A stretch of DNA of 64,000 bases from Deltaproteobacteria bacterium. Lineage in GTDB: Bacteria > Myxococcota_C > UBA6777. The stretch covers positions 1 through 64,000 of the forward strand of contig PCBK01000188.1 in NCBI GenBank assembly GCA_002731275.1, in the 5' to 3' direction. The translations under genes were made by a program, and so were the position numbers. The notes beneath the pieces were generated by a model. That model saw only the letters and a list, made by a program, of their open reading frames with translations, ran no database searches and was not told the DNA's origin. Of the stretch, positions 9,698 to 44,535 are shown piece after piece. Within the stretch, counting starts at the first letter, position 1; each line of letters begins with the position of its first letter.

Positions 9698-9805
9698 GCG
9701 CTCGAAGAGCGCAACACAGACGATGTGTGAGCATCGTGGGTCTGGGGTCTACGACCCCAGGCGGGTGTGGGCAGCCAGCCCACTATGCCAAGCGGAGCGC
9801 GGCAG
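9698..9805 (-). repeat. Family A repeat, copy A1
   Basis: Four hairpins occur in order: GCGCTCgaaGAGCGC (9698-9712), CGATGtgtgagCATCG (9721-9736), CTGGGGTctacgACCCCAG (9742-9760) and GTGGGCagccaGCCCAC (9767-9783), then GCCAAGCGGAGCGCGGCAG. The order is the reverse of the copies at 14.3, 25.0, 40.3 and 44.1 kb. Confidence 0.85.
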
Positions 9806-10012
9806 CAATACGCTTGAATGATAAGGGGTTTCTTTGGGGAGGGGGTCCTTTTTTGTGTGGATAGTACTTTAGTACGACTGTGTACCTTTTTGATCTTTTT
9901 TGACAAACCGTACTTTCGGTTCTGCGAATGTCTGTTGGTATTTCGTATCCTGTATTCAGAAACAACGAGCAAGGTTGCTCAACTTCACTCACACATATAC
10001 GGAGTCCCAGCG

Positions 10013-10996
10013 ATGCAAAACTTGAACGGTCAATATTCCCTCAGCGAACAATCACTCATGAACGCAGTCATTTGCACAAAGTATGGTGCTCCCGAAGTCT
10101 TGGAGTTGCAAGAGGTCAAAACGCCCGAACCAAAAGATGATGAGGTGCGCATTCGTATTCACTTCACGAGTGTGACGGCGAGTGACAGCCTTATCAGGGG
10201 ATTGGAATTTCCGTTCCTCCCGAGAATGGTCTTGCAGATGATCTTTGGCTTTGGCAAACCACGCAATCCAATCATGGGGATGGTTTGTGCGGGTGTTGTC
10301 GATAAAGTCGGAAAGAATGTCACCAAGTTCAAAGTGGGTGATGAGGTGGTCGCATATGGCTCAAAGTCTCCGACAAAGAGACGCTTTGGTTCGTATGCTG
10401 AGTTCATTTGTCTGCCAGAAGACTGGTTCTTGACAAAAAAACCTTCCTCGATCTCATTCAAGGAAGCAGCAGCCATCCCATATGGCGGTTTGATCGCTGA
10501 CTTCTACACAGAAAAAGCAGGCATCCAACCTGGTCAAAAGGTACTCATCTACGGTGCCTCCGGGAGTATTGGGACTGCCGCCCTCCAGCTCGCAAAGCAC
10601 ATCGGTGTAGAAGTGACTGCTGTATGTAGTGCTCGGAACTTCGGTCTCGTTGAATACCTTGGGGCTGATAAAATGATCGACTACACCAGTCCAGACGCTG
10701 TGTCCCAACTCGAAGAGTACGATGTTGTCCTCGATGCAGTCGGTGAGACAAAGACCTCGGATGTGAAAGAGGCGAGCAAGCACGCGCTTCGGGATGGTGG
10801 TCGTTATGTCTCTGTGGACAATGGGACGCCTAACCCGAAAATCACGTCGTTCATGAAGATTATTGAGATGGCTGGAAAGGGTGAGCTGAAGCCAGTCATC
10901 GACAGGACATTCTCTCTGACGGACATTGTCGAAGCACATCACTATGTGGACCGAGGCCACAAAAAAGGCAATGTGATGATTGAAGTGAATCAATAG
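10013..10996 (+). CDS. Zinc-independent MDR oxidoreductase (quinone-oxidoreductase-like)
   Basis: The protein has about 327 residues of the medium-chain dehydrogenase/reductase superfamily. The N-terminal GroES-like domain opens with AVICTKYGAPEVLELQEVKT and contains GMVCAGVVDKVGKNVTKFKVGDEV. The NAD(P)-binding domain has VLIYGASGSIGTAALQLAKH with the AxGxxG-type signature of the quinone-reductase branch, then DVVLDAVG. The C-terminus GRYVSVDNG ... AHHYVDRGHKKGNVMIEV is typical. No catalytic-zinc Cys/His set was seen. GGAG 8 bases before ATG 10013 sets the start; the ATG at 10058 is the alternative. Substrate and physiological role are unknown. Confidence 0.85.
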   Translation: MQNLNGQYSLSEQSLMNAVICTKYGAPEVLELQEVKTPEPKDDEVRIRIHFTSVTASDSLIRGLEFPFLPRMVLQMIFGFGKPRNPIMGMVCAGVVDKVGKNVTKFKVGDEVVAYGSKSPTKRRFGSYAEFICLPEDWFLTKKPSSISFKEAAAIPYGGLIADFYTEKAGIQPGQKVLIYGASGSIGTAALQLAKHIGVEVTAVCSARNFGLVEYLGADKMIDYTSPDAVSQLEEYDVVLDAVGETKTSDVKEASKHALRDGGRYVSVDNGTPNPKITSFMKIIEMAGKGELKPVIDRTFSLTDIVEAHHYVDRGHKKGNVMIEVNQ

Positions 10997-11206
10997 AAGA
11001 AGGATTAGTTTGTGCTTACGCCTGTCTCGATGGTCGAGGAGCAAGACTATTTCAAGCAAAAAGGGGCGCGTGACAGTTCCTTCCAAAGCCCTGTACAAAA
11101 TGACGAAGATGTCGTATCTTCAGTGGCTATATGATCGAATGAATCGGGGTAAGACCATTCGGAGAAAGAGTTGGTTTGGCCCTTTGTGTCGTTGAAAGGA
11201 AGGAAT

Positions 11207-14200
11207 ATGCGAGAGCGTCAAGTCTTGTACAGATGTTTTCATCTGTTGATCTTTTTTGTAACATTGTTTGTGGGTTGTGATTGTCAGGAGACAGGTGGGC
11301 TCGGTTCAACGCGCCATCTCGTTGCAGCTCCCGAGAGCATTTCTTTCGACGCACAAGAGGGGCAGGAGCAAACCCAGGAGGTGAAGATCACTGCGAAGGT
11401 TGGAGCCATTCAGATTGAGAGTGTCAGTCTGATCACTGGTAAGTCCCACTTTACATTGCTGCAGGATACACTCCCAACGCTCCCGATGACCCTTGAAGAG
11501 GGGGCATCTTTTACACTCAAGATTACCTACAAGGCTCCAGCGGGGACGCCGCCTACAGGTCTCCTTCGGGTTGTGAGTGATTCGACGATCCCAGCAGAGG
11601 GCAAGTTGGACATTCCATTACTCACACAGCTCAACAACCAGCGCCTGACACTGACGCCTAACCCTGCGAACTTCGGTGGTCTCGAAGAAGGCCAGGACAA
11701 AGAGATCGAGGTGGTTGGTAAAAATGAAGGTCGTGCGGTCCTCAATATCGAGAAGATTGAGAAGGACGCCAGTAGCAGTCCGGCCTTTACGTTCCCTGAT
11801 GGGCTGCCCAAGACGCCCCTTGAAGTCAAACCTGGAGAGAGCTTCAAATTTAAGATCAAATTCTCCCCAACACAGCGTAAGCCCGACCTTGGGAAGATCT
11901 TGTTTACATGTAAAGGTGGGTGTTCACCTGAAGATCCCAACCCAAATAACCGCAAAGATCCGTTTATTTTGCCACTGAGTGGGACGATCGCGATACCTTC
12001 GATTGAGGTCGAGCCAAATGCCCTTGATTATGGTTTTGTGCAGAGCGGGAAGGTAGTGACGAAGACATTCAAGGTGAGGAACCGGGGCGCCGCGCTGTTG
12101 AAGATCAGTCAGATTACCTTTAAGGCGGGTTCCAGTGGTGCGTTCTTTATGCCAGTCCTCGAAAATATCGATATCCAACCGGGCGCCAACAAGGACGTCG
12201 CTGTCGAATACAAGCCCAGCGCAGTCGTTGAGAACAGAGGGACTGTTGAGATCCACAGTAATGATCCTTCGAAGAAGGTGATCGAGGTCCAATTACTTGG
12301 GAAGGTCTCGGCACCAAAGATCAAGGTGACACCGACAAAGTTGGCTTTTGGGAAGGCACCTATCAAGAAGATCTTATGTGTGACCATCGCGAATGTCGGT
12401 GATCAACCACTTGAGGTCGAACCTGCGACACTTGTGGCTGGGACGTCTGCTGAGTTCAAGCTCGAAAAAGCACCTGTGAAGATCACGCTCCAACCCAACG
12501 GAAATGACAAGCTTTGTGTTGTGTATACACCTGTCGATGCAGTGAATGATGTGGGGACATTGAGGCTCAAGAGTAACGATCCGGCGAGTAAGATTGTCGA
12601 CGTGGCTTTGACGGGCGAGGGGCTTGCGCCGAAAGTTTGTGATCTTGTCGCGCGGCCTTCGACGATCAATTATGGTTTGAGTGTGCTTGGACGTGCGAGG
12701 GTCGAAAAACTCGAATGGTACAACACTGGAGCGGCTGATTGTACGGTGACACGTTTTGGTGTCGCGACGGACAGGAGTGGTTTTCCTCCTTATCTTGGGC
12801 CGGAGGTGTTCTCGATCAGCAATCTACCTGCACAGTGTTCATCTGGTACATGTAACCCTCCATTGATTGTGAAGGCCGGGAACGCCTTTACGATGGATGT
12901 GACCTTTCTACCTATCCACGAGAAGAAGGGGATCAACAGCAATCCTCCGTTGACTGGGAGTGTGACCGTTAGTACCAACGGGACACCTAATAATCGGGTC
13001 GCGCAGCTCTCAGGACTCGCTGTTCCCGGATGTGTTTCAGTGGTTCCAGATGTGATTGATTTTGGATTGACGACGATCAACTGTTCATCTAAAAATGAAT
13101 CGGTCTTGATTTACAATACATGTCCAAGAGAAGTCACGGTCTCAAAGGTGCGCTTCAAGAATGTGCCATCTGGTGGATTTCAGATCACGAAGTCTCCGAC
13201 AGTTCCCTTTAAGATCCCATCTGGAAAGACAGTGGAGATTGGGCTTCGTTACAAAGCGGGTGCGACACCTAAACAGGAGAACGCGACACTTGATATCGAA
13301 CACTCATTGACCCAATTGTCTCCGGTCAGTGTTGCTTTGTCTGCGGCTGTGACGACAACGGCGGACCAGACGGATACATTCAAGCAAGCGAGTAACGAGA
13401 AGGCCGACATCTTATTTGTCATTGACAATTCGTGTTCGATGTCAGCCGAGCAGAACACCCTTAAAAAGAACCTGGGGATCTTTTTGCAGTGGGCGAAGAC
13501 GCTCAATGCGGATTATCATATTGGTGTGACGACGACGGATGTGCGGAAGATCGCGAGACCTGTTCCTGGTACATTACGTGGTTCGCCCAATATCATCACA
13601 CCGACGACACCCAATCCAGAAGCAGTGTTCCGCAACAACGCGACACCAGGGACATCTGGGGATGCTCCTGAGTCTGGACTTCAAGCGGCGCACTTGGCGT
13701 TGACACCACCTCTTTCGACAGGTGCCAATAAAGGGTTTTTGCGACAAGATGCGACGCTGACGATTGTTGTGGTCTCAGATGAGTCTGATCAGTCGACGAA
13801 CTCGACGGGATTTTATCTCAACTTCTTCCGTAACTTGAAGGGTGGACCCAGAGCGGATAGATTCCGACTGCATGCGATTATTGGGATTGACCCCACCAAT
13901 AAACAGGTCCTAAATTGTAAGTCAGGAAACAGCAGCAGCAACTTCGATGGTGGGTATTCTGGTGGACGATATGCGGATGTCGCGACGAAGACAGGGGGCT
14001 TTGTTGAGTCGATTTGTCTCTCTGATTGGTCGAACTATTTTAAGAAAATTGGGACACTGACATTTTCGTTACGCAAGAAGTTCTTCTTGAGCCGTGCTGC
14101 CGATCCCAAGTCGATTGTTGTCAAAGTGAACGGTGCCGTTCAGGCAACAGGCGCAAGCACATGGGTGTATGACGCGACCTCGAACAGTATCGACTTCTCA

Positions 14201-14292: not shown

Positions 14293-14416
14293 CTGCCGCG
14301 CTCCGCTTGGCATAGTGGGTTTGCCAGGCGTGCGCGCCCCCGGCCACACCCGCCTGGGGCTTTCACCCCAGACCCCACGATGTTATCACATCGCTTTTGT
14401 TGCGCTCTTCGAGCGC
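14293..14416 (+). repeat. Family A repeat, copy A2 (rearranged first hairpin)
   Basis: It starts with TGCCGCGCTCCGCTTGGCAT and ends with GCGCTCttcGAGCGC. The CTGGGGctttcaCCCCAG and CGATGttatcaCATCG hairpins are retained. The GTGGGC hairpin is replaced by a longer segment containing GGCGtgcgCGCC. The copy lies 36 bases after the stop codon of the VWA lipoprotein. Confidence 0.85.
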
Positions 14417-14510
14417 TATGCGGCGGTTTGTCGGCTCCCGCCTATGCTCGACTGCTGCAAAGCAGCACTCTCGCGGTGCGCGTCGTGACTTCCAGCACGA
14501 AGGGAATCTG

Positions 14511-14579: not shown

Positions 14580-14815
14580 CCCCCTCAGTCCGAGAGCTTG
14601 CTCGTCCAACTCCCCCTGTCCAATTTCATTGGCAAAGGGAGCGATACAAGACCCCCTCAGTCCGACCTGCGGTCGTCCAGCTCCCCCTGCTGTTCAAGCC
14701 TCGATATTCTCGGCTTGGCAAGGGGAGCGATACAAGACCCCCTCAGACGGGCTTCGCCCGCCAGCTCCCCCTGTGAGACCTACGCTTTGCTTCGGTCGAC
14801 AAGGGGAGCGATACA
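14580..14815 (+). repeat. Family C: three tandem hairpin units
   Basis: Three units (14580-14651, 14652-14737, 14738-14815) share CCCCCTCAG, then a variable arm, then (C)AGCTCCCCCTG, a second variable arm, and AAGGGGAGCGATACA. The conserved CTCCCCCT and AAGGGGAG form the base of a hairpin. The inner arms differ: the first arms are GAGAGCttGCTCGTC, GACctgcgGTC and ACGGGCttcGCCCG; the tips of the second are CAATTTCATTG, GCCTCGATATTCTCGGC and CGCTTTGCTTCGG. Unit length varies (72, 86, 78) with the arms. Confidence 0.85.
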
Positions 14816-16153: not shown

Positions 16154-16462
16154 CTTGTTGAAGGGTGCATACGTATATTTTTTAAGAATATTCAAACTTT
16201 TTTCTAGCATGTTGACTGCGCAGTGCAATTTTTTTGGTGATGTGTTTTTTCTTTTTTGATGGGATGTTGGTACACCGATTGCTTTGCGGGGAGGCCGTTT
16301 GTCCGATGAGCATGATGCTCGTCATACTTGGTTGACCTCTTCACACTTCTCAAGTGACTTTTGCGCTCTCTACGGAAATTCACCCTTTCCAGAACAGTCT
16401 TTTTCGAGAATTTGGGGGAGGTCTCATACCCAGCGCGCTCGATATGCGCCGAAGGAGATCCC

Positions 16463-19400
16463 ATGAACCAACGATACACCCATCGGTATTTTCTGTTCCT
16501 GTTTTTACTCGGTATATGGATGTCACTGAGCATCGCATGTGGTCCACCACCTGCAGTGTGTAAGGTCGGTGGTGATTGTGTGAATGAGCTTACCTGTGAT
16601 GAAGGACAATGTGTCACGGAGTGCAGCGCTGGCAAAACGCAATGTGGACAGATGTGTGTGGATACACAAAGTGATGCCAAGCATTGTAGCGCCTGCGATG
16701 CCGCCTGCAAAGAAGGGGAATCCTGTGACAAGGGGTCTTGTAAGGCTTTTTGTGAGGATGGCAAAAGCAACTGTGGCGGAGAATGTGTCAACACAAAATC
16801 CAATGCCAAACACTGCGGAGCCTGCGGCACTTCTTGTAAAGAGAATGAACAATGTAAAGAAGGCACATGTTCTTCTTCTTGTGGGGCGGATGAGTTACTT
16901 TGTGATGGTACATGTGTCAACACCCAGACGAGCACCGAACATTGCGGTCGTTGTGGTACATCATGTCATACCGGGCAGTCCTGTACAGACGGAGCGTGTG
17001 CTTGTCCTAGCGGGACAGCATCGTGTGCTGATGCCTGTGTGGATACAAAGAGCAGTACAAGTCATTGTGGCGCATGTGGAAAGGCTTGTGCTTCTGGGGA
17101 GTCGTGTGAAAATGGTCGCTGTGTGTTGAAGTGTAGTGCTGGCCTTCAGAATTGTGGGGGTGCTTGTGTGGATACAAAGAGCAGTGAACAACATTGTGGC
17201 GCATGTGGAAAAGCCTGTGCAAACGGTGAGACCTGTCAGGCAGGTAAGTGCACTCTTGTATGTGGTGCAGGTCTTAGCAATTGTTCGGGGTCTTGTGTGT
17301 CTTTGCAAAAGGACCGTTCACATTGTGGTGGATGTGGAAAAGCCTGTGCGACAAATGAAGTCTGTGTCTCTGGTAACTGCCTGCTTAATTGTCGTGTGGG
17401 GACAACAAATTGTGGTGGTAAGTGTGTGGATACAAAGTCGGATAAGGCCCACTGTGGACAATGTGGGAAGGTATGCAAGACAGGTGAAGTCTGCAATCAG
17501 GGGAGCTGTGTTTTGCAGTGCGCTTCAGGGACCACAAATTGTAGCGGTTCTTGTGTCGATGTAAAAAGCAGTACAAGTCATTGTGGTGGATGTGGAAAGG
17601 CTTGTGCTTCTGATGAAGTCTGTCTTTCTGGGGCATGTACATTTCAGTGTCCAACTGGTTTAACGGATTGTAGTCGCACATGTGTAGATACAAAGTCGAA
17701 CACAAAACATTGTGGTGCGTGTGGGAAAACATGTCACACAGGGCAATCTTGTAGTAATGGTGCCTGTGTTTGTCCGGCTGGGACAACCTCTTGTGGTGGG
17801 GCTTGTGTGGACACAAAGAGCAGCGATGTCCACTGTGGTGCGTGTGGAAAAGCCTGTACAGGAGGGACGTCTTGTCTCTCTGGCACATGTCAGTGTCCAA
17901 CTGGACAGACATTGTGCAATGGAAAGTGTGTGAATGTGAAGACTGACACAACAAATTGTGGAGGGTGTGGAAAAGTCTGTGGTGCTGGGCAAAGTTGTCA
18001 GTCTGGCCAGTGTGTGTGTCCGACGGGACAGACATTATGTGGTGGAAAGTGTGTCAACACCGACACGGATAATACTCATTGTGGTGCATGTGGTTTTGTG
18101 TGTAGTGGTGGAACTTCGTGTACAACGGGGACGTGTCAGTGTCCGACGGGACAGACCCTATGTGGTGGACAGTGTGTGAATACAAAGACTGATAAGGCAC
18201 ATTGTGGTGCGTGTGGAAAGGTTTGTGGTACTGGGCAGAGTTGTCAGTCCGGCCAGTGTGTATGTCCGACGGGGCAGACATTATGTGGCGGAAAGTGTGT
18301 TTCTTTGCTCACTGACAAGGCACATTGTGGTGCGTGTGGATTGGTCTGTTCTGGTACATGTCAATCTGGAAAGTGCAGCACGTTGGTGTACGAGATTGCA
18401 GCAGGTAATGAACATGTTTGCGCTGTCGTCGGACAAAATATCAAGTGTTGGGGACACAATTTGAATGGACAGCTTGGCTATGGTGACAAAATAGATCGTT
18501 CAAAGCCTCCAACACAAAATGTGAGTGTGGGGACTTTTGTATCGAAGGTCTCTGCCGGGAGAGCTTCGAGTTGTGCGATATTGGCCAACGGTCAAATCAA
18601 GTGTTGGGGATTCAATAACACAGGTATGCTCGGTTATAACGATCGTATGGAGCGTACATCGCCACCGAGTACATCCGTTGCGGTTGGTTCGACTGCGAAA
18701 ACGCTCTCCGTTGGAAGTGGTCATATGTGTGCTGTGTTGAGTAACGACAGGATAAAATGTTGGGGGAGCAATACATATGGAGAACTTGGGTATGCAAGTG
18801 CAGGGATTCTTGGCTATTTGCAGCCACCTGCGTCCTATGTGACGACTGGATTCTCTGTCCAGACAGTCCACACGAGTAGCAGTTATACTTGTGTTTTGTT
18901 GACGAATGGTCAGAGCAAGTGTTGGGGGTCTGGGTTGGCTGGGAAGCTGGGGTATGGAGACACGACCACACGTAAAGTTCCTGATTCGAAGTATATTTCA
19001 CTAGGAACAGGTCTCTCCGTAAAGCAAATTACGCAGGGATCCATCCATGTGTGTGTGCTCCTCAACAACAACAAAGTGAAGTGTTGGGGACACAATTCCA
19101 GTGGTCAACTTGGGTATGGCGATACGTCACAGCGTCTGAGTCCACCGTCTGCGTTTGTGGATTTGGGAGCCGGACGAACGGCAACTTACATTGCTGCAGG
19201 TGAGAGTCATACATGTGTCATTCTTGATAATGGTCAGGTCAAGTGTTGGGGGAAGAATGCCAGCGGAGAGCTTGGCTATGGTGACACAACCAACCGGAAT
19301 AAACCAGCTTCAGCTACGGTCTCCATTGGCACCGGAAGACGCGCCATTCAGCTCTCTTTGGGGGTTGGTTTTACATGTGCGTTGTTGGATAATCATGAGG

Positions 19401-19492
19401 TCAAGTGTTGGGGGAACAATCAATATGGGCAACTTGGTTATGGGGACAAAACAAACCGGACAAAACCGGCTACCAGCGTGATTTCGTTCTAG
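16463..19492 (+). CDS. Cys-rich-repeat plus RCC1 beta-propeller lipoprotein
   Basis: The protein has about 1009 residues. A signal peptide with lipobox LSIAC is followed by 14 tandem cysteine-rich modules of 39-43 residues (pattern C-G-C-G-CV-T-HCG-CG-C-G-SC-G-C; residues ~35-630). Then come seven RCC1-type repeats (for example HVCAVVGQNIKCWGHNLNGQ followed by LGYGD), enough for a seven-bladed propeller. AGGAG lies 5 bases before ATG 16463; an in-frame start at 16361 would bury the signal peptide. Modules 11-14 are nearly identical in DNA, a sign of recent duplication. The protein is surface-exposed and probably binds a ligand or another protein. It ends 11 bases from the convergent membrane-protein gene. 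Confidence 0.88.
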   Translation: MNQRYTHRYFLFLFLLGIWMSLSIACGPPPAVCKVGGDCVNELTCDEGQCVTECSAGKTQCGQMCVDTQSDAKHCSACDAACKEGESCDKGSCKAFCEDGKSNCGGECVNTKSNAKHCGACGTSCKENEQCKEGTCSSSCGADELLCDGTCVNTQTSTEHCGRCGTSCHTGQSCTDGACACPSGTASCADACVDTKSSTSHCGACGKACASGESCENGRCVLKCSAGLQNCGGACVDTKSSEQHCGACGKACANGETCQAGKCTLVCGAGLSNCSGSCVSLQKDRSHCGGCGKACATNEVCVSGNCLLNCRVGTTNCGGKCVDTKSDKAHCGQCGKVCKTGEVCNQGSCVLQCASGTTNCSGSCVDVKSSTSHCGGCGKACASDEVCLSGACTFQCPTGLTDCSRTCVDTKSNTKHCGACGKTCHTGQSCSNGACVCPAGTTSCGGACVDTKSSDVHCGACGKACTGGTSCLSGTCQCPTGQTLCNGKCVNVKTDTTNCGGCGKVCGAGQSCQSGQCVCPTGQTLCGGKCVNTDTDNTHCGACGFVCSGGTSCTTGTCQCPTGQTLCGGQCVNTKTDKAHCGACGKVCGTGQSCQSGQCVCPTGQTLCGGKCVSLLTDKAHCGACGLVCSGTCQSGKCSTLVYEIAAGNEHVCAVVGQNIKCWGHNLNGQLGYGDKIDRSKPPTQNVSVGTFVSKVSAGRASSCAILANGQIKCWGFNNTGMLGYNDRMERTSPPSTSVAVGSTAKTLSVGSGHMCAVLSNDRIKCWGSNTYGELGYASAGILGYLQPPASYVTTGFSVQTVHTSSSYTCVLLTNGQSKCWGSGLAGKLGYGDTTTRKVPDSKYISLGTGLSVKQITQGSIHVCVLLNNNKVKCWGHNSSGQLGYGDTSQRLSPPSAFVDLGAGRTATYIAAGESHTCVILDNGQVKCWGKNASGELGYGDTTNRNKPASATVSIGTGRRAIQLSLGVGFTCALLDNHEVKCWGNNQYGQLGYGDKTNRTKPATSVISF

Positions 19493-19503
19493 ACAGAAGA
19501 CTT

Positions 19504-24928: not shown

Positions 24929-25015
24929 GAGTCGCTGAGAGTAGGGCGAGTTGCCACTCGCTGAGAGTAGGACGAGTTACCACTCGCTGAGAGTAGGGCG
25001 AGTTTCCACTCGCCC
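24929..25015. repeat. 26-bp tandem palindromic repeat
   Basis: CGAGTTgCCACTCG hairpins are joined by CTGAGAGTAGGg. Units begin at 24947, 24973 and 24999 (period 26), with a partial unit at 24929. The loop varies (TTGCC, TTACC, TTTCC) while the CGAGT/ACTCG stem is constant. Confidence 0.85.
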
Positions 25016-25018
25016 TTA

Positions 25019-25149
25019 CTGCCGCGCTCCGCTTGGCTCTGGCTGCCGCGCTTCGCTTGGCATCGTGGGTTTGCCACCCACACCCGCCTGGGGTCTACGA
25101 CCCCAGACCCACGATGTTATCACATCGTCTGTGTTCCGACTTCGTCGGT
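25019..25149 (+). repeat. Family A repeat, copy A3
   Basis: The outer GCCGCGCTTCGCTTGGC block is duplicated. GTGGGTttgccACCCAC, CTGGGGTctacgACCCCAG, CGATGttatcaCATCG and CCGACttcGTCGG follow. It starts 46 bases beyond the stop codon of the minus-strand lipoprotein gene that ends at 25195. Confidence 0.85.
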
Positions 25150-28377: not shown

Positions 28378-28555
28378 CTTGGCATGGTGGGCTTGCCGCC
28401 CACACCCGCCTGGGGTCGTTGCCCCCAGACCCCGCAATGTTATCACATCGTTTGTGTTCCGACTTTGTCGTTGAGGGGTTGATGGTATCCTTCTCTGGAG
28501 ATGTATGTCTTTTGGGTTGACTTTGCATGTCGCAAGGGTTTGTTCTTTTTGATCG
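28378..28555 (+). repeat. Family A repeat, copy A4, long form
   Basis: The hairpins are GTGGGCttgccGCCCAC (28387-28403), CTGGGGtcgttgcCCCCAG, a mismatched CAATG/CATCG and CGACtttGTCG. The extra 3' block of the long form (GATGGTATCCTTCTCTGGAG ... TTGACTTTGCATGTCGCAAG) follows. It pairs with an inverted copy just downstream. Confidence 0.82.
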
Positions 28556-28561: not shown

Positions 28562-28752
28562 TATATTGGTTTGGAGGTTGGGTTTGTGGTGTGTCTTTTG
28601 TGTTCACGCGAGAGCGTCGCTTTGCGACGGTTGAGCATATGCTCTTCCAAGCGCCGAAGGCGCAACACAAACAATGCGTGAGCATTGTGGGGTTCGGGGT
28701 CTGTGACCCCGAGCAGGTGTGGACGGCAAGTCCACAATGTATCAAGAAAAGA
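28562..28752 (-). repeat. Family A repeat, inverted partner A4b
   Basis: In reverse order relative to A4: CGTCGCtttGCGACG, GCGCCgaaGGCGC, CAATGcgtgagCATTG, TTCGGGGTctgtgACCCCGA and GTGGACggcaaGTCCAC, then ATCAAGAAAAGAGTT. Four of these hairpins correspond to A4 hairpins with changed, still paired stems. It ends 6 bases from the hydrolase stop codon. Confidence 0.82.
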
Positions 28753-32307: not shown

Positions 32308-35300
32308 ATGAGGCAACTCCGTCCTGCATTTTTGTATGCTGTGGCCTTGGTGCTGAGTGTCGGAGCCACTTTGTGTTGGGCTCCATCTCAGGCTGAAGCC
32401 TCCCACTTTCGTGGTGGGACATTGAGTTATGTTTACAAGAGCGGTCGAACAGTCGATATCACTTTGGATACTTACTTTCGCCGCGGATTTTCCAACTGGT
32501 GCCCTTCAACAGGGACCTGTGTCGGCCGAACAATCAACGTCGGTTCGATCTCGACGGGTGATGGTGGCTCCATCTCAGCACAGCTGAGAGTTGTGTTTGA
32601 TGATCAAAATGGAAACAACGGTGTCATCATCGCAAGAAACACATTCACCTACACATATCGCGGAACAAGTCTTGGGCCGTTTGTGGCGAGCTGGCGAGGA
32701 GGGGCCTGGATTTCAGGTGCTTCTGGCCGCGCTGGCTCTAGCTGGAACTTGGAAACACAAGTTTGGCTTAACGGAAACACCGGACCAGACTTCAACTCTC
32801 CCACTTACTACGAGTGGTGTGCAGGTATTCCCTTTATCATCAACGTCAACGCAACGGACAAGGAAAATGATCCCATCACCTACCGTTTGCGATGGACACC
32901 TCGCGACAAAGATAGCTCTATTCCTGTCGCTGACAACGCAACGATCGATCAACTAGGGACCATTACTTGGCCCAAACCAAAAGCTGGCAACTGGGTCATC
33001 ACGCCTGAAGCAGAAGACTCCAAGAAAGCCACCGTTTACCGAGATTTTCTGTTGGTGGTTCGTGCGAGCTGTACCAACCGCGTTCCGACGATCGCTTTGA
33101 GTACATCGAGTGTACAAGTCAAACCTGGCATCAAGGCTTGCACAACTGTGACCGCATCCGACCCTGACGCCGGGCAGAAGCTTACATTCTTGGCCTTGCC
33201 ACAAAAGGTTGGTTCGACCCCCAATCCCTTGCCAAGCAACCAAAACAGCCCTGCGACGTTCCAGTATTGCTGGACACCCACGGCGCTGGATATTGGTGTA
33301 CACAAGATCCAAATGACCGTGACTGATACAGGCTCACCTGGACTGAGTGCGTTCAAGACATTTACTGTCAACGTCACAAAAGGTGATCCACCCACATTCA
33401 CGATCACAGGACCGACATCAGGCTACCCTGGACAGACCTTTTCATTTACTGTCAAAGCGACGGACCCCGATGGTAAGGCTATTTCTATCTTCAATATTGC
33501 GAACTTGCCGAGCTACTGTACCGCTGTCAAAACAGGCAGTGACCTCTACACCATAACGTGTAAGCCTACAACTGCCGACTCCGGCAAGAAAATCACTGTC
33601 GAAGTGACCGCTGTGGATGCTGACACAGAGGTTGGTAAGAGGAGCTTTGACATCGAAACACTCGTCAACAATCTCCCCAAGATTACGAGCACACCAGGGA
33701 CAACTGTGAATGAGCGGGCCACCTACACTTACAAAGTGACCGCAACAGACGCTGACGCTGGCGATACGCTTACGTATAAGATGACCAAAGGACCCAATGG
33801 CGCCGCGATGGGAGCCGGGAACACTGTCTCTTGGTCTCCTGCTGCTGCGGATCTTGGCAAGTCCTTTGATTTTGAAGTGGAAGTGTGTGACCAGAAAGGT
33901 GGCTGTATAAAGCAAGCCTGGAAAGTCACTGTCCTCAATGTCAACGATCCACCCAAGATTACTTCGACCGCGCCTTCTGATATCACACGTGATAACCCCC
34001 TCAACTACGACGCTGATGCGACAGATCCAGACACGGGCGACACCCTGACATGGTCCATCACAAAAGGGCCAGCCGGCGCCAGCATCAACGCAAGCACTGG
34101 CGTCTTGACGTGGTTACCTCCGACGTCTGATGAAGGGAAGTCCATCGATTTCACGATCAAGGTGTGCGACAAGGGTGGGCTTTGCGATACACAAAGCTTC
34201 AAAGTCAACGTCAAAAAACTCGCGAGTCCTCCACAGATCTTCGGAACACCTGAAGGAAACGCAACGGCGACGAAACCATACTCCTACAAACCTAGTGTCA
34301 TCGACAATGACACTGGCGATACACATACCTGGAAAGGAAACAAACTCCCCACAGGTGCAACGATTAACGCGAGCACAGGCGAAATTACCTGGACTCCTGC
34401 TGCCGCCGATGCCGGAAAAGAGTTTGATTTCGACATCGAAGTCTGTGATCAATCAGGACTTTGTGCCAAGCAAACCTGGACAGTTCGTGTCTCAACAGGG
34501 AACAACCTTCCTCAAATTATCGGCACACCCGGACAGACTGCGCAACGCGATCGTAACTACACATACGCTCCAACAGTCCGAGATCCTGACACTGGTGATA
34601 CACACACTTGGACCCTGGACAAGGGGCCTGCTGGTGCGTCTTTGGACCCAAAAACAGGGCGTTTGAATTGGACACCTGGGGCTGCTGATGTCGGTAAAGA
34701 TGTCGACTTCTCCATCAAAGTCTGTGATGCTGCCGGTGATTGCGCGAGCCAATCCTGGAAAGTCAATGTTCAATCCGGTCCCAACACACCTCCCCAGATC
34801 TCGACGACACCTGCGACTTCGGGAACTGTCAATCAGGCGTATACATATGTACCTGCCGTGATCGACCCCGATGCCAGTGATACTCATACATGGGCCTTGA
34901 AAAAGGGACCTGCTGGTGCGAGCTTTGAAGCCTCTACTGGGAAGCTCGACTGGACTCCTGCTGCCGGAGATGACGGAAAAGACATCGAGTTTGAGCTCGA
35001 AGTGTGTGATAACAGTGGAGCGTGTGCGATCCAAACGTGGAAAGTTCGCGTTGGAAATGGAAACAACCCACCTGTCATCGTTGGTGCGCCGAAAACAACG
35101 GCTTCTGTTGGTGTGCCTTACACCTTCAGCCCAAAAGTGACAGACGCTGACTCCGGAGATACACACACCTGGAAGGGGACAACGCTTCCGACTGGTGCGT
35201 CTATTGATTCGACGACTGGTGCGATCACCTGGACACCTGGTTCTGCGGACGCTGGCAAGCACTTCGATTTTGAGATTGAAGTGTGTGATGACAAAGGCGC

Positions 35301-38300
35301 CTGTGCAACACGTAAATGGAAGGTCAAAGTAGATGCACAAGGGAACGTTTCTCCGTCCATTTCATCGACGCCTTCCTCCAAGGCGACTGCAAATCAAACT
35401 TATTCTTATGTACCCGTCGCGGTGGATCCAGACATCGGCGATACCCTCTCTTGGAGCGGAAAGACGTTGCCTCCAGGTGCCTCTGTTGATCCAACGACAG
35501 GCCGTTTGACTTGGGTTCCTACAGCTGCGGATGATGGGAAAGAAGTAAGCTTTGCCATCGAAGTGTGTGATGACAAGGGCGGTTGTACGACGCAGACATG
35601 GAAAGTCCGTGTCGGAAGCGGAAATACACCACCTGCCATCACAGGGACACCTTCCAATACTGGTATTGAGGGTGTTGCGTATGGATTCAAACCTGCAGTT
35701 GTTGATCCTGACGCAGGGGACACACACACCTGGAAAGGGACGACGTTGCCTACTGGCGCAAGTGTTGATGCTGCGACTGGAGAAGTGACCTGGACACCTG
35801 CCACAGCTGCTGTTGGCCAAAACGTGCCCTTCGAGATTGAAGTCTGTGATAAGAGCGGTTCCTGTGCGCGAAAAAGCTGGAGCGTACTGGTACGTTCGGC
35901 TGGTGTGAGCAACACACCTCCTCAAATTGGTGGTGTGCCTGCAAATGACGCGACAGAAGGGAAGTCCTATTCATACGCTCCTTCGGTGATTGACCCTGAC
36001 ACGACAGACACACACGGCTGGCGATTGAAGTCTGGACCAGCAGGCGCGAGCTTTGATCCTAAGACTGGCAAAATCGATTGGACACCGTCTTCTACAGATG
36101 TCGGCAAAGAGGTCACCTTTGAGCTTGAGCTGTGTGACAGTGGGGGAGATTGTGCGACACAACAGTGGAAGGTGAAGGTTGGGGCTGCGAATCAACCTCC
36201 TCTCATCACCAGCACACCTCCTGTAAAGGGCGAAGTGTCAACTGCATATTCCTATAAACCTACAGTGACAGATCCCGACACTGGAGACACACACACCTGG
36301 AAGCTCAAAAAAGGACCTTCTGGTGCGAAAGTCGATGCGTCTACAGGTGAGGTGACATGGACACCAACCAGCGCTGAGAACGATGCGTCTCATCGTTTTG
36401 AGCTTGAAGTGTGTGATCAAGGTGGTAAGTGCACAACCCAGTCTTGGGAGGTGCGTGTTGGGAAAGGCAATCAACCTCCTGTGATTACAGGAACACCAGG
36501 TTTGACGGCTGATATCGACAAAGATTACACCTATGAACCAAAGGTCACTGACGCAGACGCTGGTGACAAACACACCTGGAAACTCGTCTCTGGCCCTGGC
36601 GCCGCTTCGATTGATCCTTCAACAGGGAAGATTACGTGGAAGCCAGCGGCTTCTGATGGTGGAAAAGAAGTCAACTTCAAAGTCGAAGTCTGTGACGACA
36701 AGGGGGGCTGCGCGACACAAGAGTGGAAGACCACTGTGACCGCAAACAACCCACCTCAAATTGACGGTGCACCTGAGACGACCGCTGAGGTTGGAAAACC
36801 TTACGGTTACAAACCAAAGGTGACGGACCCTGATGCAGGTGACAAACACACATGGACTGCCAAGTCGATTCCGCCAGGAGCGACATTTGATGCACAGACT
36901 GGTGAGCTCTCCTGGACGCCAAAAGCCGGAGATGCAGGGAAGACATTCGATGTTGAGGTCGAGGTGTGTGATGACAAAGGTGGTTGTGCGACGCGTAAGT
37001 GGCGTATCAAGGTTGGTGGTCAGGCCAATACACCTCCATCTATCGCAAATGCGCCTTCTAACCATGCTGTCGCGACAAAGGAATACGCCTTTGAACCAGT
37101 CCTTGTTGACCCTGATACAGGGGACACGCATACCTGGAAACTCGTGAGCGGACCCACCAATATGAAGGTCGATCCACAAACAGGGAAGTTGACCTGGACA
37201 CCGACTGCTGCGGATGCTGGAAAAGACTTTGATGCTGAGATTGAGGTTTGTGATAGCAGCGCAAATTGTGCGAGTCGTAAGTGGAAGATTCGTGTAAGCA
37301 GCGAACAAAATCCTCCCCAGATTGGTGGGACTCCCAAGACATTAACGGCTGTATCGAAGCCATATGTATACGGTCCATTTGTCTCCAATCCTTATCCTGG
37401 CGAGACGTATACCTGGAAGCTCAACAAGGGGCCAACTGGCGCCAAAGTTGATCCTTCGACAGGCGCGCTTGTCTGGACTCCGGGGGCTGGAGATATGGGG
37501 AAAACATTTGATTTTGAGATCCAGGTTTGTGATAGCAAAAACAAATGCAGTACACGCTCATGGAAGGTCCGTGTGACAAGAGATGTCAACACACCTCCTT
37601 CGATTGTGTCGACACCTCCAACGGACGCACAAGAAGACATTGTGTACACATATGCTCCTCGTGTGCTCGATCCAGATGCTGGTGACAAACACACCTGGAC
37701 GCTCAAAAAAGGCCCCACAGGCGCGACCATCGATGCCAACACTGGCATGGTTCGCTGGACACCTGGTGCAGGGGATGTTGGGAATGATGCTGATTTTGAG
37801 ATTGAGGTGTGTGATGCACAAAACCGCTGTGACTCTCAAACTTGGAAGGTCAACCCCAAAGGACGAAATCATCCCCCAACAATCGACAGCAAGGCACCTT
37901 CGACTGCGTATGTCGGTACAGATTACACCTATGAACCACAGGCCAATGATGTCGACACAAACGACACTTTGACCTGGAGATTGGTGACTTCACCTCCTGG
38001 CGCAACGATCGACGCTGCGACAGGAAAAGTCACCTGGAAACCGACGGCTGCGGATGCTGATGTGCCGAAGTCTTTTGAGGTTGAGGTTTGTGATAATGGT
38101 GTGCCACCGCTGTGCAAGCGTCAGGTCTTCTCAGTGACTGCGAAGAACCGTTGTCGTGTGGATGTCGATTGTCAGGGGACAGATATCTGTGTGCAAGATA
38201 CAGCTCGTCAGTGGATTTGTGTTCCTGCTGGATGTAGTCTGCTTTCACCTAAGTGTTCAGATGCAAAAGCGCTTTGTATGGAAAGTCAGTGCAAGGAGAA

Positions 38301-40206: not shown

Positions 40207-40265
40207 ATCCTCTCCCTCTCCTCTGTTTTTTTCTTGATACTCCCTCGTTCCCACTTGCCCATATG

Positions 40266-40442
40266 GCTGCCGCGCTCTGCTTGGCATCGTGGGCTTGCAG
40301 CCCACACCCGCCTGGGGCTTTCACCCCAGACCCCACGATGTTATCACATCGTCTGTGTTCCGACTTCGTCGGTGAGGGGATGATGGCATCCTTTTCTGGA
40401 GTTGTATGTCTTCTGGGTTGACTTTGCATGTCGCAAGGGTTT
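40266..40442 (+). repeat. Family A repeat, copy A5, long form
   Basis: The outer GCCGCGCTCTGCTTGGC block is followed by GTGGGCttgcaGCCCAC (40289-40305), CTGGGGctttcaCCCCAG, CGATGttatcaCATCG and CCGACttcGTCGG. The long-form block ending TTGACTTTGCATGTCGCAAG comes last. It starts 59 bases after the stop codon of the giant gene. Confidence 0.85.
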
Positions 40443-40452
40443 GTTTTTTCTT

Positions 40453-40722: not shown

Positions 40723-40917
40723 CATTGTTTTGGAGGTTGGGTTTGTGGTGTGTCTTTTGTGTTCACGCGAAAGCGTCGCTTGGCGACGGTTGAGCACATG
40801 CCAAGCGCCGAAGGCGCAACACAAACGATACGCAGTATCGTGGGGTTCGGGGTGAAAACCCCGAGCAGGTGTGGACGGCAAGTCCACAATGCATCAAGAA
40901 AAGAGTTCGTGAGGGTC
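40723..40917 (-). repeat. Family A repeat, inverted partner A5b
   Basis: The hairpins are CGTCGCttgGCGACG, GCGCCgaaGGCGC, CGATAcgcagTATCG, TTCGGGGtgaaaaCCCCGA and GTGGACggcaaGTCCAC, then ATCAAGAAAAGAGTTCGTGA. It is a near copy of A4b and A6b. The stretch 40533-40722 between partners holds no gene. Confidence 0.85.
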
Positions 40918-40977
40918 GTGGTGTTTTGCTTGCTCGGCCTGTGTTTAGGAGTGGGTGGGTAAGTCTCCTCACTGAAG

Positions 40978-41018
40978 CAAGAAGCCACTTCCAAAGGCGT
41001 AGCCGGCGGGAGGGGGAG
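40978..41018. repeat. Short dispersed repeat (copy 1 of 2)
   Basis: CAAGAAGCCACTTCCAAAGG continues with CGTAGCCGGCGGGAGGGGGAG. It matches 46684-46724 (CAAGAAGCCTCTTCCAAAGG, then CTAATCCGACGGGAGGGGAG). It lies ~90 bases upstream of the MopE lipoprotein gene. Confidence 0.6.
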
Positions 41019-41108
41019 TTCACAGCAAATGTGTAAGAGGAGTGTGATACAAATCTTTGTGTTCGGTAAACTCTTTGGAATGTTTCTTCACGTTGCGGAG
41101 ATCGTTGT

Positions 41109-44045
41109 ATGAAAAGATTGATCATGGCTTGCGGTGGGATTTTTTTAGTTGTTTGGTGTGCTGCGTGTGGGATTGCATCTGAAGAGCCTGAGATTGTGCG
41201 TGTAGAGCCCAAGGAGACGGAAGCGTTTGTGGAATTTTCTCCAAGTGAAAAAATTGATGAGTATTCTGATCTCGAAACCCCACAGCCAGACGAATCACCT
41301 TCAAGCCAAGTGCTTGATGCATCGCCTCCTGAGCCTGCCTTTTTGTGTCCTCCCAAAGAGACAAGATCCTGTTTTGATGGTCCGAAAGAAAGCACCGCTG
41401 TAGGGGGCTGTCGTTTCGGATATAAGGTGTGTGACAAATCGGGGAATTGGGGACCTTGCCTTGATCAGGTGCTCCCAACCCTCGAAGAATGTAATGGGAA
41501 AGACGACGATTGTGATGGTGATATTGACGAATCATACTCTAAAAAGGGACTGTCTTGCATCTTGCCTGACAAATATGCTCGTTGTGCGACTGGAAAATAT
41601 GATTGTACAGATGGGAAGCTGACCTGCCAGCAAACGCAAACTCCACAGGTCGAAGAGTGTAATGGAAAGGATGATGACTGCGATGGTTCTGTCGATGAGG
41701 AGTTGACAATATCATGTCAGACCCCTTGTGGAACGGGAGTGGAGCGCTGTGTGAGTGGGAGTATGCTTGCTTGTGATGCACCTCGTCCAGCGCTTGAAGT
41801 GTGTAATGGAAAAGATGACAATTGTGACGGAAGTATTGATGAGATGTATCCCGAAAAGATAGTGGGTTGTGTGCTCTCTGGTCAAAAAGGGCGATGTGCA
41901 GTGGGACTGGCTCAGTGTAGTGCAGGGAAGGTCATCTGTACATCAAACTATACATACCAAACAGAGCGATGCAATGGGATTGATGATGATTGTGATGGGC
42001 TTACTGATGAAGGTTGCGGTAAGGGTTGTCTTGTGAAAGACACTTTTCCCGCGCTTCCCAAAGCGCATACTTTCTCCATTCGTGGTGTGGTGTTTCATCC
42101 AGATGGAAAACGGTACTTTACGTACGACAAACATCAGGTCTACGTGTGGGACATTGCGACACATAAGTGGCTGGACTCGTTTGATTTACCAATCACCATT
42201 TTCAATCTTGTGTTCTCAAAAGACGGACGTTTTCTTTTTGCTGGAGATCATTGTCGAAAGTCCATCAAGTGGGAGCTTTCTACTCGTCAGGTTGTACACG
42301 TCTACACAACAACAGATCCTCAAAAAGTGCACGGTTGTTTTCCTGGCGTTGCTTTGTCACCTGATGGAAAGAACATTGCTTTGTCCGATTATAACTTCGA
42401 TAGTGTCAAGACAAAGCATTGGGTTGAATTCTTTGATACAGCGACAGGAAAACGCTCTCAGACCATTCAACTTGGTTTGCGATACCATCGCTTAAATGTT
42501 ACATTTGATCTTTCTGGGGATTATCTTTTGGTTCCGACGACATATGATATTGATCAACGTTTTTCGACCTCTATTGTCCAGGTCTCTTCGAATCCGAAGC
42601 GGTCGTCGATATGTTTGCGTGATGCGTATGCATGGACACAGGATCAAAAAATGGGTGTCGCAGTTGAGTACTATGTCGACCAAGTGACACCCATGGAGAA
42701 AATCGTGGTATGTGATCGGGCCAATGATAAGATCCTCTCTTCCTGGAACATTGGGCAAAAGTGGGATCTCAAGAAGAGACATATGTACGTGGATATATCA
42801 GAGGATGGTAGGAGGGTTCTGACTGGTTCTTGGGCGCAGAAAAACAATATCAACATTTGGGATGTCGCTACACAGAAGGCCATTATGACGCTCAGTTACT
42901 TTGACACCCTTTCCATACGTAAAATCGATTTGAGTCCTGATGGTAAGTTCTTCACGATCTTGAAGAATGATAAAACGACGAGTGGGCGAGTTCTTGAGAT
43001 TTGGGAAGTTTCTACAAAGCAGCGTGTGTATACATCTTCGATGTCAGTGCATGGTTCGCTTTTTTGGCCTGCCGGAGATGCCGTGATGATCTACGGTGAT
43101 GGTGTGGAACTTTGGAGTCTCTCTCTGCGAAAATCGACGTACAGACTTTCTAACAAACCACTCTCCAACACGCCGAGAGCAAAAGCCATCGCAATACATC
43201 CAGGTGGCACGACTGTCGCATATGTGCTCGACAATCAGCTTCATATTGGAGATCTGAAGACCTCTACATTCTCACATCAATTGACTCTTCGTGGTTCCGT
43301 TCACCGAATGGATTTTCATCCAACAAAGCCTATTATATCGCTTTTGTACAAGGACAACATTGAGCTGCGTGATGCATCGACAGGTCAGCTTCTTTTTGTT
43401 CTCAAAGGACCGAAGGAGCTTCACCAAGGATACTTTCACACGAATGGAAAGGAGTTTCGTGCGAGTTCTCAGACCCAACCAGGTATTTGGGTTTGGGATA
43501 TCAGCACCGGGAGACTGTTGGGTAAAGAACAACCAACACTCCCTGCACCGTTTAAGATGAGTCGCGATGGGGATATTCTGCTGAATTGGGTCCAGGTTTG
43601 GAATGCCCGAACAGGCGTCATTTATTTTTCGGGTGGAAGAAAACCATCTCCTTTTGATGTTGCGCTCTCATATATTCACTTGGATCCGACTGGTACATAC
43701 TTAACATATAAAGAGAAACAGGTGGGCTCCTTTTCGTTGCCTATGTGGGCATTGATGGATATCTCTGGTCGTGTTTTTTACAAAGAGTATCCTGTTGAGA
43801 AACAGGAGTCTCTTGCTCTTCCTCCGTACCTCCCCTTTATTTCGGGCCTTGGGGCGCATGGCCAAGTTGCTGTTTTGGAGCACAATGACTTTCAGGGGGT
43901 CTACTCTCTCACACAGAAGAAGTTTTTGGGTTACACTCCTCTTCTTCAGGTTGACAACTCTTCTGCTATCGCGACAAGCAAGGACGGGAAGACAATCGCT
44001 GCACGTTACAAGTTTGACCACTTCCGTGTTTGGTATTGCCAATGA
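41109..44045 (+). CDS. Lipoprotein with MopE metal-binding repeats and a WD40-like beta-propeller
   Basis: The protein has 978 residues. The signal peptide ends in lipobox WCAAC. A Glu/Pro-rich linker precedes four MopE-type putative metal-binding motifs (ECNGKDDDCDGDIDE; ECNGKDDDCDGSVDE; VCNGKDDNCDGSIDE; RCNGIDDDCDGLTDE), with cysteine pairs between them (~105-305). The remaining ~660 residues are WD40/quinoprotein-like propeller blades (GVVFHPDGKRYFTYDKHQVY; DLSPDGKFFTILKNDK; AIHPGGTTVAYVLDN). In Methylococcus MopE this motif is linked to copper binding; here calcium or another metal is possible. GGAG lies ~9 bases before the ATG. A family A repeat starts 5 bases after the stop. Confidence 0.87.
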   Translation: MKRLIMACGGIFLVVWCAACGIASEEPEIVRVEPKETEAFVEFSPSEKIDEYSDLETPQPDESPSSQVLDASPPEPAFLCPPKETRSCFDGPKESTAVGGCRFGYKVCDKSGNWGPCLDQVLPTLEECNGKDDDCDGDIDESYSKKGLSCILPDKYARCATGKYDCTDGKLTCQQTQTPQVEECNGKDDDCDGSVDEELTISCQTPCGTGVERCVSGSMLACDAPRPALEVCNGKDDNCDGSIDEMYPEKIVGCVLSGQKGRCAVGLAQCSAGKVICTSNYTYQTERCNGIDDDCDGLTDEGCGKGCLVKDTFPALPKAHTFSIRGVVFHPDGKRYFTYDKHQVYVWDIATHKWLDSFDLPITIFNLVFSKDGRFLFAGDHCRKSIKWELSTRQVVHVYTTTDPQKVHGCFPGVALSPDGKNIALSDYNFDSVKTKHWVEFFDTATGKRSQTIQLGLRYHRLNVTFDLSGDYLLVPTTYDIDQRFSTSIVQVSSNPKRSSICLRDAYAWTQDQKMGVAVEYYVDQVTPMEKIVVCDRANDKILSSWNIGQKWDLKKRHMYVDISEDGRRVLTGSWAQKNNINIWDVATQKAIMTLSYFDTLSIRKIDLSPDGKFFTILKNDKTTSGRVLEIWEVSTKQRVYTSSMSVHGSLFWPAGDAVMIYGDGVELWSLSLRKSTYRLSNKPLSNTPRAKAIAIHPGGTTVAYVLDNQLHIGDLKTSTFSHQLTLRGSVHRMDFHPTKPIISLLYKDNIELRDASTGQLLFVLKGPKELHQGYFHTNGKEFRASSQTQPGIWVWDISTGRLLGKEQPTLPAPFKMSRDGDILLNWVQVWNARTGVIYFSGGRKPSPFDVALSYIHLDPTGTYLTYKEKQVGSFSLPMWALMDISGRVFYKEYPVEKQESLALPPYLPFISGLGAHGQVAVLEHNDFQGVYSLTQKKFLGYTPLLQVDNSSAIATSKDGKTIAARYKFDHFRVWYCQ

Positions 44046-44049
44046 CACG

Positions 44050-44226
44050 ACTGCCGCGCTTCGCTTGGCATAGTGGGCTTGCAGCCCACACCCGCCTGGG
44101 GCTTTCACCCCAGACCCCACGATGTTGTCACACCGTTTGTGTTCCGACTTCGTCGGTGAGGGGATGATGGCATCCTTCTCTGGAGTTGTATGTCTTTTGG
44201 GTTGACTTTGCATGTCGCAAGGGTGT
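44050..44226 (+). repeat. Family A repeat, copy A6, long form
   Basis: The block GCCGCGCTTCGCTTGGC is followed by GTGGGCttgcaGCCCAC, CTGGGGctttcaCCCCAG, CGATGttgtcaCACCG (one mismatch) and CCGACttcGTCGG, then the long-form tail. It starts immediately after the MopE gene. Confidence 0.85.
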
Positions 44227-44330
44227 GTTTTTTCTTGATGGAGGGGGCTATTGTTGTGGTCGCTCGTCTTTTCTGGGGCTTTGTCCTAGAAATAAAAAAC
44301 CCACCCACGATGACATCGTCTTTTTGCTGG

Positions 44331-44535
44331 GGAGCCTACATTTGTTTGTGGGTTGGGTTTGTGGTGTGTCTTTTGTGTTCACGCGAAAGCGTCGCGTTGC
44401 GACGGTTGAGCACATGCTCTTCCAAGCGCCGAAGGCGCAACACAAACGATACGCAGTATCGTGGGGTTCGGGGTTGAAAACCCCGAGCAGGTGTGGACGG
44501 CAAGTCCACAATATCCCAAGAAAAGAGTTCGTGAG
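44331..44535 (-). repeat. Family A repeat, inverted partner A6b
   Basis: The hairpins are CGTCGCgttGCGACG, GCGCCgaaGGCGC, CGATAcgcagTATCG, TTCGGGGttgaaaaCCCCGA and GTGGACggcaaGTCCAC. Plus-strand reading frames across this element are not genes. Confidence 0.85.

Follow-up and report, generated by a model that had tools for sequence, protein, structure and literature searches.

Family A, a set of repeats in a 64,000-nucleotide stretch of DNA from Deltaproteobacteria bacterium (assembly GCA_002731275.1, contig PCBK01000188.1, positions 1 to 64,000; hereafter, the window), was analyzed for its hairpins, linkers and distribution. It is probable, at about 0.6 by our estimate, that Family A is a non-coding intergenic DNA repeat resembling repetitive extragenic palindromic (REP) sequences and miniature inverted-repeat transposable elements (MITEs), of the kind known from potential intrastrand triplex (PIT) and BoxC elements, and that its single-strand fold is preserved. 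After H1 and H2, two of its four hairpins, the linker repeats the 3′ (pyrimidine) arm of the stem in mirror image. Since the linker covaries with the stem as a mirror, the sequences suggest the signature of an intrastrand DNA triplex, for which the purine motif on the G-rich strand is the best match. More tentatively, it is proposed that the third strand of such a short triplex is under detectable selection, or is needed for copying, in at least three distant bacterial lineages.

Architecture of the repeat unit

In the sense used here, a unit reads H1 - ACCCGC - H2 - ACCCC - H3 - TTGTGTT - H4, where H1 to H4 are hairpins. H1 is GTGGGC TTGCC GCCCAC in the unit consensus reading. H2 occurs as CTGGGG .. 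CCCCAG, TCGGGG .. CCCCGA or TTGGGG .. CCCCAA, H3 as ACGATGC TCAC GCATCGT plus variants, and H4 as GCGCTC TTC GAGCGC, CCGAC TTC GTCGG, GCGCC TTC GGCGC or ACGCC TTC GGCGT. On the opposite, G-rich strand the H4 loop becomes a C-GAA-G triloop, which is very stable in DNA, and H2 takes, for example, the form 5′-GGGAGTCTGAGGG-loop-CCCTC, with the GGGG and GGAG versions built likewise. An outer pairing, CATCGTGGG..CCCACGATG, was dropped because it is not conserved among copies. An earlier note on this DNA had described four to five ordered hairpins; the fixed order is indeed common to the copies, while the number settles at four per unit. The stems that it had listed (GTGGGC, GTGGGT and GTGGAC; CGATG, CAATG and CGATA; CCGAC, GCGCTC and GCGCC with TTC loops) are all present.

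Covariation of linkers with their stems

Mirror repeats extend across the linkers, as in CCCC-AGA-CCCC, CTCC-AGA-CCTC and CCCTC-AGA-CTCCC, and these are neither direct nor inverted repeats. In the genome of the window, the linker after H1 stems GTGGGC or GTGGGT is ACCCG in 68 units and CCCCG in 2, that is, C in 70/70; after GTGGAC it is ACCTG in 11, ACCAG in 5 and ACCCG in 0. The same dependence can be observed at H2 in other genomes, where the search patterns left the diagnostic linker base free. GGAG stems were followed by T (CCTC) in 42/42 matches and GAGG stems by T (CTCC) in 110/111, with A in one and C in none, and for GGGG stems in the same two Clostridia the equivalent base was C in 129/129 among the matches listed. 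IMG/VR, an independent collection, gave T for GGAG in 6/6 and C for GGGG in 14/14, counting only matches whose two H2 arms pair completely and excluding two coding-looking GGAG matches without the H1 signature. As a control, other hairpins in the same DNA with 6-bp purine stems other than GGGG were mirrored in 9/705 cases, and several of these nine resemble genuine units that our filter overlooked.

The joint behavior of stem and linker was also followed along phylogenies. Concordant switches of stem and linker occur on 6-9 branches, depending on which of two trees is used (nine on the tree built without H1), and on no branch do both sides of the stem change while the linker stays C. In the tree-based test described below, the columns that covary with the H1 stem outside the pairs include a linker base (columns 15 and 23) at E about 0.2, which is suggestive only.

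Two other explanations for the linkers were rejected. Watson-Crick (WC) pairing between the linkers of head-to-head partners does not hold, as the facing linkers (ACCCC opposite GAGG in genome G061, ACCCGC opposite GCAGGT in pairs of the window’s genome) are mismatched while each fits its own stem. A G-quadruplex on the G-rich strand is disfavored, since GGAG and GAGG interrupt the G runs yet obey the triad rule.

Covariation within the stems

In an alignment of 24 copies, made by MAFFT from sequence only, 96.0% of pair cells held standard pairs, and both sides had changed in 11/24 pairs. When the 3′ partners were slid as controls, 35-46% of cells were paired and 0-3 pairs showed double changes. 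A larger alignment of 124 copies, which was fitted to the structure model and so leans towards structure, gave 97.5% and 18 pairs with double changes, against 38-44% and 5-8 pairs in its slid controls. Phylogeny was taken into account through a null similar to that of R-scape, with a FastTree tree, Fitch reconstruction, branch substitutions permuted over columns, a G statistic with average product correction and 200 simulations. Under this null, 7/24 base pairs reached E<0.05, together with one non-pair, formed by two neighboring columns of the H2 loop. By parsimony on the tree, 52 branch events led from WC to WC on both sides, compared with 33 one-sided losses of WC pairing. The earlier note had taken compensated changes in the stems as a mark of conserved secondary structure and had proposed a covariance model with a phylogeny-aware test; the slid controls and the tree-based null bear this out, and the seven significant pairs constitute a pass of that test.

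It should be considered whether mutation alone could keep the pairing with no structural selection, either by template switching at quasi-palindromes or by exchange of hairpin modules between copies. The excess of double over one-sided changes looks as if both arms change together, and the elements are plainly mosaic, as such a process would predict. However, template switching rewrites arms and has no known route to mirror-rewrite a flanking linker, yet stem and linker switch jointly, and exchange of modules distributes combinations that already exist without generating the matched ones. This explanation is regarded as very unlikely; a mutation-only process may still contribute at H3 and H4, neither of which shows a third strand.

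Copies in the window and in the genome

The window is part of a 10.75-Mb genome assembled in 200 contigs. A covariance model made from the 24 copies was run over both with cmsearch. Nine copies of about 88 nt were found in the window, all at E<=5e-12, and no further match there was better than E=0.08. The repeat family recognized in the earlier note is thus real, while its count of seven copies, plus or minus, becomes nine. Across the genome at least 124 copies were found at E<=0.001, a lower bound as 150/4891 first-look candidates were scored. Of these, 122/124 are intergenic, without overlap to genes predicted by our own codon-usage caller of open reading frames (ORFs). The copies, and the hairpins of one of them, are presented in Table 1.

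Table 1. Family A copies in the window and hairpins of the copy at 40.3 kb (LE and RE, left-end and right-end types).
Feature	Position	Strand	Evidence
Single copy, H1-H4; H4 = GCGCTC TTC GAGCGC	9698..9786	-	cmsearch 86.8 bits, E 1.9e-15
Copy with enlarged H1 (GTGGGTTTGCCAGGCGTGCGCGCCCCCGGCCAC), then further hairpin module to ~14470	14312..14416	+	cmsearch 69.4 bits, E 4.7e-12
Single copy; H4 = CCGAC TTC GTCGG	25062..25148	+	cmsearch 101.4 bits
LE copy, left end of head-to-head pair	28384..28471	+	cmsearch 96.3 bits
RE copy, right end of 28.4/28.7 kb pair; H1 stem GTGGAC, linker ACCTGC	28651..28738	-	cmsearch 107.1 bits
LE copy, left end of head-to-head pair	40286..40372	+	cmsearch 105.4 bits
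H1 hairpin GTGGGC TTGCA GCCCAC + linker ACCCGC, third-strand candidate; 3′ arm + linker GCCCAC-ACCCG = mirror repeat	40289..40311	+	Sequence; linker/stem table
H2 hairpin CTGGGG CTTTCA CCCCAG + linker ACCCC, third-strand candidate; CCCC-AGA-CCCC mirror repeat	40312..40334	+	Sequence; stem/linker covariation in other genomes
H3 hairpin ACGATG TTATCA CATCGT	40335..40352	+	Sequence; pair counts
H4 hairpin CCGAC TTC GTCGG	40360..40372	+	Sequence; pair counts
RE copy, right end of 40.3/40.9 kb pair; GTGGAC, linker ACCTGC, H4 GCGCC TTC GGCGC	40805..40890	-	cmsearch 103.0 bits
LE copy, left end of head-to-head pair	44070..44156	+	cmsearch 102.5 bits
RE copy, right end of 44.1/44.5 kb pair; GTGGAC, linker ACCTGC	44426..44512	-	cmsearch 105.5 bits

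DNA or RNA as the folded molecule

Covariation is the usual hallmark of structured RNA, and the hairpins could act in RNA as a regulatory element, a 3′ end or terminator, or a small RNA, where even the linkers could form U.A-U and C+.G-C triads, intrastrand triplexes of the pyrimidine motif being possible in RNA (PMC4666352). The 5′ neighbor lies on the same strand in 25/40 cases in two Clostridia, which is in keeping with this. Other evidence points the opposite way. Among stems of the window’s genome with a single non-WC pair, the sense strand shows G-U in 9 and A-C in 11, and an unbiased parser applied to five genomes gave G-U in 6 and A-C in 18. Without a G-U excess there is no support for a sense-strand RNA, and A-C here corresponds to G-T on the G-rich strand. 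Gene orientation in the window’s genome is near random (5′ neighbor on the same strand in 38/69, 3′ neighbor in 29/69), copies lie on both strands and in head-to-head pairs, and in the two Clostridia convergent neighbors are in excess (16/40) with the orientation not fixed. The Rfam search that the earlier note had also proposed returned no family match at the elements: nothing on the window at the gathering score, only chance or unrelated matches at permissive thresholds, and nothing at the elements in 20 loci covering all lineages. Furthermore, the linker base facing A-T includes A besides T (A in 5/16 H1 units of the window’s genome), which misfits the pyrimidine motif. Purine-motif triplexes contain A(T)-A-T and G-G-C triads and are reported to be impossible in RNA (PMC4666352), so that a linker A or T opposite A-T fits the purine motif and favors DNA. 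A structured RNA therefore appears rather unlikely, and the folded molecule is more likely DNA, on modest numbers.

Occurrence in other genomes

A scan of named genomes with the pattern CACACCYGCYYGGGGN{3,9}CCCCRRACCCC returned 35 stretches in Alphaproteobacteria (nDJH14bin10, Rhodospirillaceae BRH_c57, Magnetospirillum SS-4, Hyphomicrobiaceae and Devosia), two Clostridia metagenome-assembled genomes (MAGs) and one Nocardia. Nearly all have an H1 hairpin directly upstream, which the pattern did not require. Alphaproteobacteria, Clostridia and prophage-like contigs share the core H1-ACCYGC-H2-ACCCC and follow it with other 3′ modules. Rhodospirillaceae units are near-palindromic doubles about an A/T-rich hairpin. 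Clostridial units read ACG-H1-ACCYGC-H2-ACCCCTTCTT-CGCTTCGCG and are mostly single; their outer H1 pairs are T-A, C-G or G-C, and their H2 stems vary likewise. The covariance model counted 68 units in G060, 41 in G061, 49 in G067 and 27 in G069. No unit was found in four genomes of the same family as the window’s nor in 55 others, so that orthologous sites are lacking in its own lineage. For a G/C-rich core of 28-30 nt, common descent and convergence on the same fold are not separable.

Two further observations concern these units. In three clostridial loci (L249, L251, L268) a second H2-like hairpin is inserted (..CCCCAAACCCTTGCAAGGGATTTCATCCCTTGACCC), and the inserted sequences suggest growth by added modules of a hairpin plus ACCC. 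In IMG/VR contigs of Magnetospirillum SS-4 (L055/L067, 4512-4600, and L366), units lie within contigs classed as viral and may thus ride on prophages.

Pairs, mosaics and the question of mobility

Three head-to-head pairs (28.4/28.7, 40.3/40.9 and 44.1/44.5 kb) account for six of the nine copies in the window. Among the copies found in the genome, adjacent ones within 700 nt are head-to-head, with H4 facing H4, in 13 cases, ++ in 3 and -- in 1. The paired copies are of two end types with their own tails, LE with ...GTATCC..CAGGAGTTGTC and RE with TTGGAAGA.CATGTGCTCAACCGTCGC, and enclose interiors of 150-1100 nt. Such pairs could be read as the ends of a lost or unseen transposon, a composite insertion sequence (IS) or MITE, whose hairpins served as transposase binding sites, and the two distinct end types and the size of the interiors are as expected on this account. 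Most copies in the genome (43 with H4 GAGCGC, and many others) are single and without LE or RE tails, and clostridial units too are mostly single. The interiors that were inspected contained no visible transposase ORF, and no target-site duplication was established. This account is held to be extremely unlikely.

The modular nature of the units is also evident. H1 is enlarged in some copies, e.g., at 14312-14416 in the window, H2-H3-H4 is found behind a different 5′ module, and H1-H2 is found ahead of other 3′ modules without H3. The sequence CTGCCGCGCTCCGCTTGGCA precedes most copies of the window’s genome and occurs alone and in tandem too.

Evidence for mobility or turnover comes from the genus of G067, where an intergenic site between two conserved genes holds a unit in G067, a degenerate one in G080 and a short spacer without a unit in eight congeners examined. 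This presence and absence at an orthologous site implies that units are gained or lost. Y1 enzymes recognize hairpins on one DNA strand, and mobilization of ordinary REP elements or REPINs (paired REPs) by a REP-associated tyrosine transposase (RAYT), a Y1 HUH enzyme, was weighed in this context. Family A resembles REPs and bacterial interspersed mosaic elements (BIMEs) in its size, its location between genes, its palindromes, its dimers in head-to-head order and its mosaics (PMC3733652). In the search for RAYTs in the window’s genome and ten others, the Y1 genes do not track copy number. The genome of the window has four Y1_Tnp genes, all of them IS605 TnpA beside TnpB, with element ends unrelated to Family A; no Y1_Tnp match was present in G061 (41 units) or G069 (27 units), which are incomplete, MAG-type assemblies, and G067 (49 units) has one broken match. 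Moreover, neither the alignments of copies from the window’s genome nor the clostridial units show an invariant GTAG or CGTC at the stem foot. Mobilization of this type is judged distinctly unlikely. One unit of Family A lies about 100-200 bp past the end of L031, one of the four IS605-type elements with TnpA and TnpB (L031-L034).

Several neighboring repeats were observed. Short intergenic repeats, CTGCCGCGCTCCGCTTGGCA (often tandem) and GGGCGAGTTGCCACTCGCCC, lie ahead of most copies (window 25008-25059 and 24935-25030), and the DNA between genes in this region is a patchwork of several families of hairpin repeats. A hairpin module 3′ of H4 (window 14417-14470), TATGCGGCGG..TCGCC..CCCGCCTATGCTCGACTG CTGC AAA GCAG CACTCTCGCGG, recurs in L143, L149, L163 and C70:17112, and the last stem of this module shows compensated changes relative to CGTCGC AAA GCGACG of the RE tails. 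Another repeat, CCCCCTCAG-[ACGGGCTTCGCCCGCC]-AGCTCCCCCT, at about 14590-14690 in the window and also in L137, L141 and L175-L180, places a hairpin between mirror-image pyrimidine arms (CCCCCTC..CTCCCCC), an arrangement from which H-DNA could also form. At L115 (3294-4349) a small ORF that looks pentapeptide-repeat-like by eye lies inside a head-to-head pair of 1 kb. By the same means, a large repeat protein with about 14 near-tandem repeats of ~280 nt (window 33827-38042) appears Ig/cadherin-like, and a Cys-rich repeat protein (window 16361-19492) appears to contain RCC1-like repeats.

Proposed triplex and its weighing

In the proposed explanation, the H1 and H2 stems and their C-rich mirror linkers would form short intrastrand triplexes of 3-5 triads. 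Triad rules hold at H2 for GGGG/CCCC, GGAG/CCTC and GAGG/CTCC and at H1 for GTGGG with CCC and GTGGA with CCT/CCA, in runs of 4-5 and 3-4, respectively. The best fit would be the G-rich strand, in the order 5′ third strand, purine arm, loop, pyrimidine arm, as a class I purine motif with antiparallel G.G-C and A.A-T or T.A-T triads. Alternatively, the C-rich strand could adopt a class III pyrimidine motif with parallel C+.G-C and T.A-T triads. The triplex would form in cells while the strand is single, during replication, transfer or repair. Spread of the units would depend on a process acting on DNA that copies a sequence only if it can fold, and the mosaics may arise where forks stall or templates switch at the units.

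The following points weigh against this explanation. The last linker base of clostridial H1 is T in ~45% of units despite a G-C stem pair, so the H1 linker rule is not kept at that base in Clostridia. Few independent ancestral switches lie behind the H2 rule (GGAG in Alphaproteobacteria, GAGG in Clostridia, GGA in H1 of the window’s genome, and single cases such as CCAGGGA with ACCCT), and the high counts represent copies rather than events. H2 stems in the window’s genome are all GGGG, which gives the H2 rule no variants there. The triad runs fall below the thresholds of published finders, which ask for at least 6 triads (ITxF) or for more than 7 (Hoyne) (PMC4666352), and for the related TMECO motif, the best-studied one, DMS (dimethyl sulfate) footprints in vivo gave no support for a stable triplex (PMC4666352). 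Mobility or turnover is seen at one site only, and no mobilizing gene was found.

The formation and relevance of triplexes, intrastrand or H-DNA, in bacterial cells is an open question in the field, and natural covariation of a third strand is a type of evidence beyond the reach of in vitro work. If true, selection on the third strand, or its requirement for copying, would provide evolutionary evidence for triplexes in living cells, as part of the life cycle of an undescribed class of mobile DNA. The natural variants GGGG/CCCC, GGAG/CCTC and GAGG/CTCC also offer a ready-made set for swap experiments.

Comparison with known systems

Streptococcal BOX and enterobacterial ERIC elements are, by their description, similar to Family A in combining several hairpin modules in a fixed order with variable composition; to our knowledge, mirror linkers have not been reported in them. 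H-DNA also has mirror symmetry of a pyrimidine run, whereas in Family A the purine strand would come from the 5′ arm of the same strand, as a hairpin triplex, and no long duplex would need to open.

GTAG and CGTC REPs, REPINs and BIMEs are likewise short, intergenic, multi-copy palindromic repeats with head-to-head dimers and mosaic clusters (PMC3733652, PMC3116915). The stems of GTAG and CGTC REPs vary yet stay paired, and the CGTC class, like Family A, has no known transposase (PMC3733652, PMC3116915). Family A differs in its multi-hairpin unit of ~88 nt, compared with one palindrome of 20-40 nt, and in its third-strand covariation.

The closest likeness is to PIT/BoxC/TMECO elements and the ITxF set (Hoyne, Maher et al.; Holder et al. 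2015, PMC4666352), which are also repeated, strictly intergenic, G/C-rich and without strand bias. They share three co-linear purine/pyrimidine blocks able to fold as an intrastrand triplex, the lack of a mobilizing gene found, and a scattered occurrence between related species. These motifs have been linked to local genome variability, and Rhodospirillum photometricum is listed among genomes rich in G/C triplex motifs (PMC4666352). The blocks of TMECO are 9 nt long and follow the class II order (Y-R-R); those of Family A are 3-5 nt long, class I when read on the G-rich strand and class III when read on its complement, and two candidate triplex hairpins stand in series, joined to further hairpins. 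The BoxC/TMECO consensus CCCTCNCCCN3-6GGGNGAGGG(N3GGGNGAGGG) occurs 0 times in the window and in 1/451 loci, not at an element. Third-strand covariation is unmentioned in that study, from which the words “covari” and “compensat” are absent (PMC4666352), and no description of the core sequences was found in open-licence literature. As Family A is not BoxC/TMECO, has shorter triad runs and shows neither the REP tag nor an associated RAYT, it is set apart within the intrastrand-triplex kind, with arrays and modular ends as further features. Undescribed repeats that lie scattered between genes in Alphaproteobacteria, Clostridia and the lineage of the window are linked here in one architecture, and the natural covariation of the third strand is the new element of evidence.

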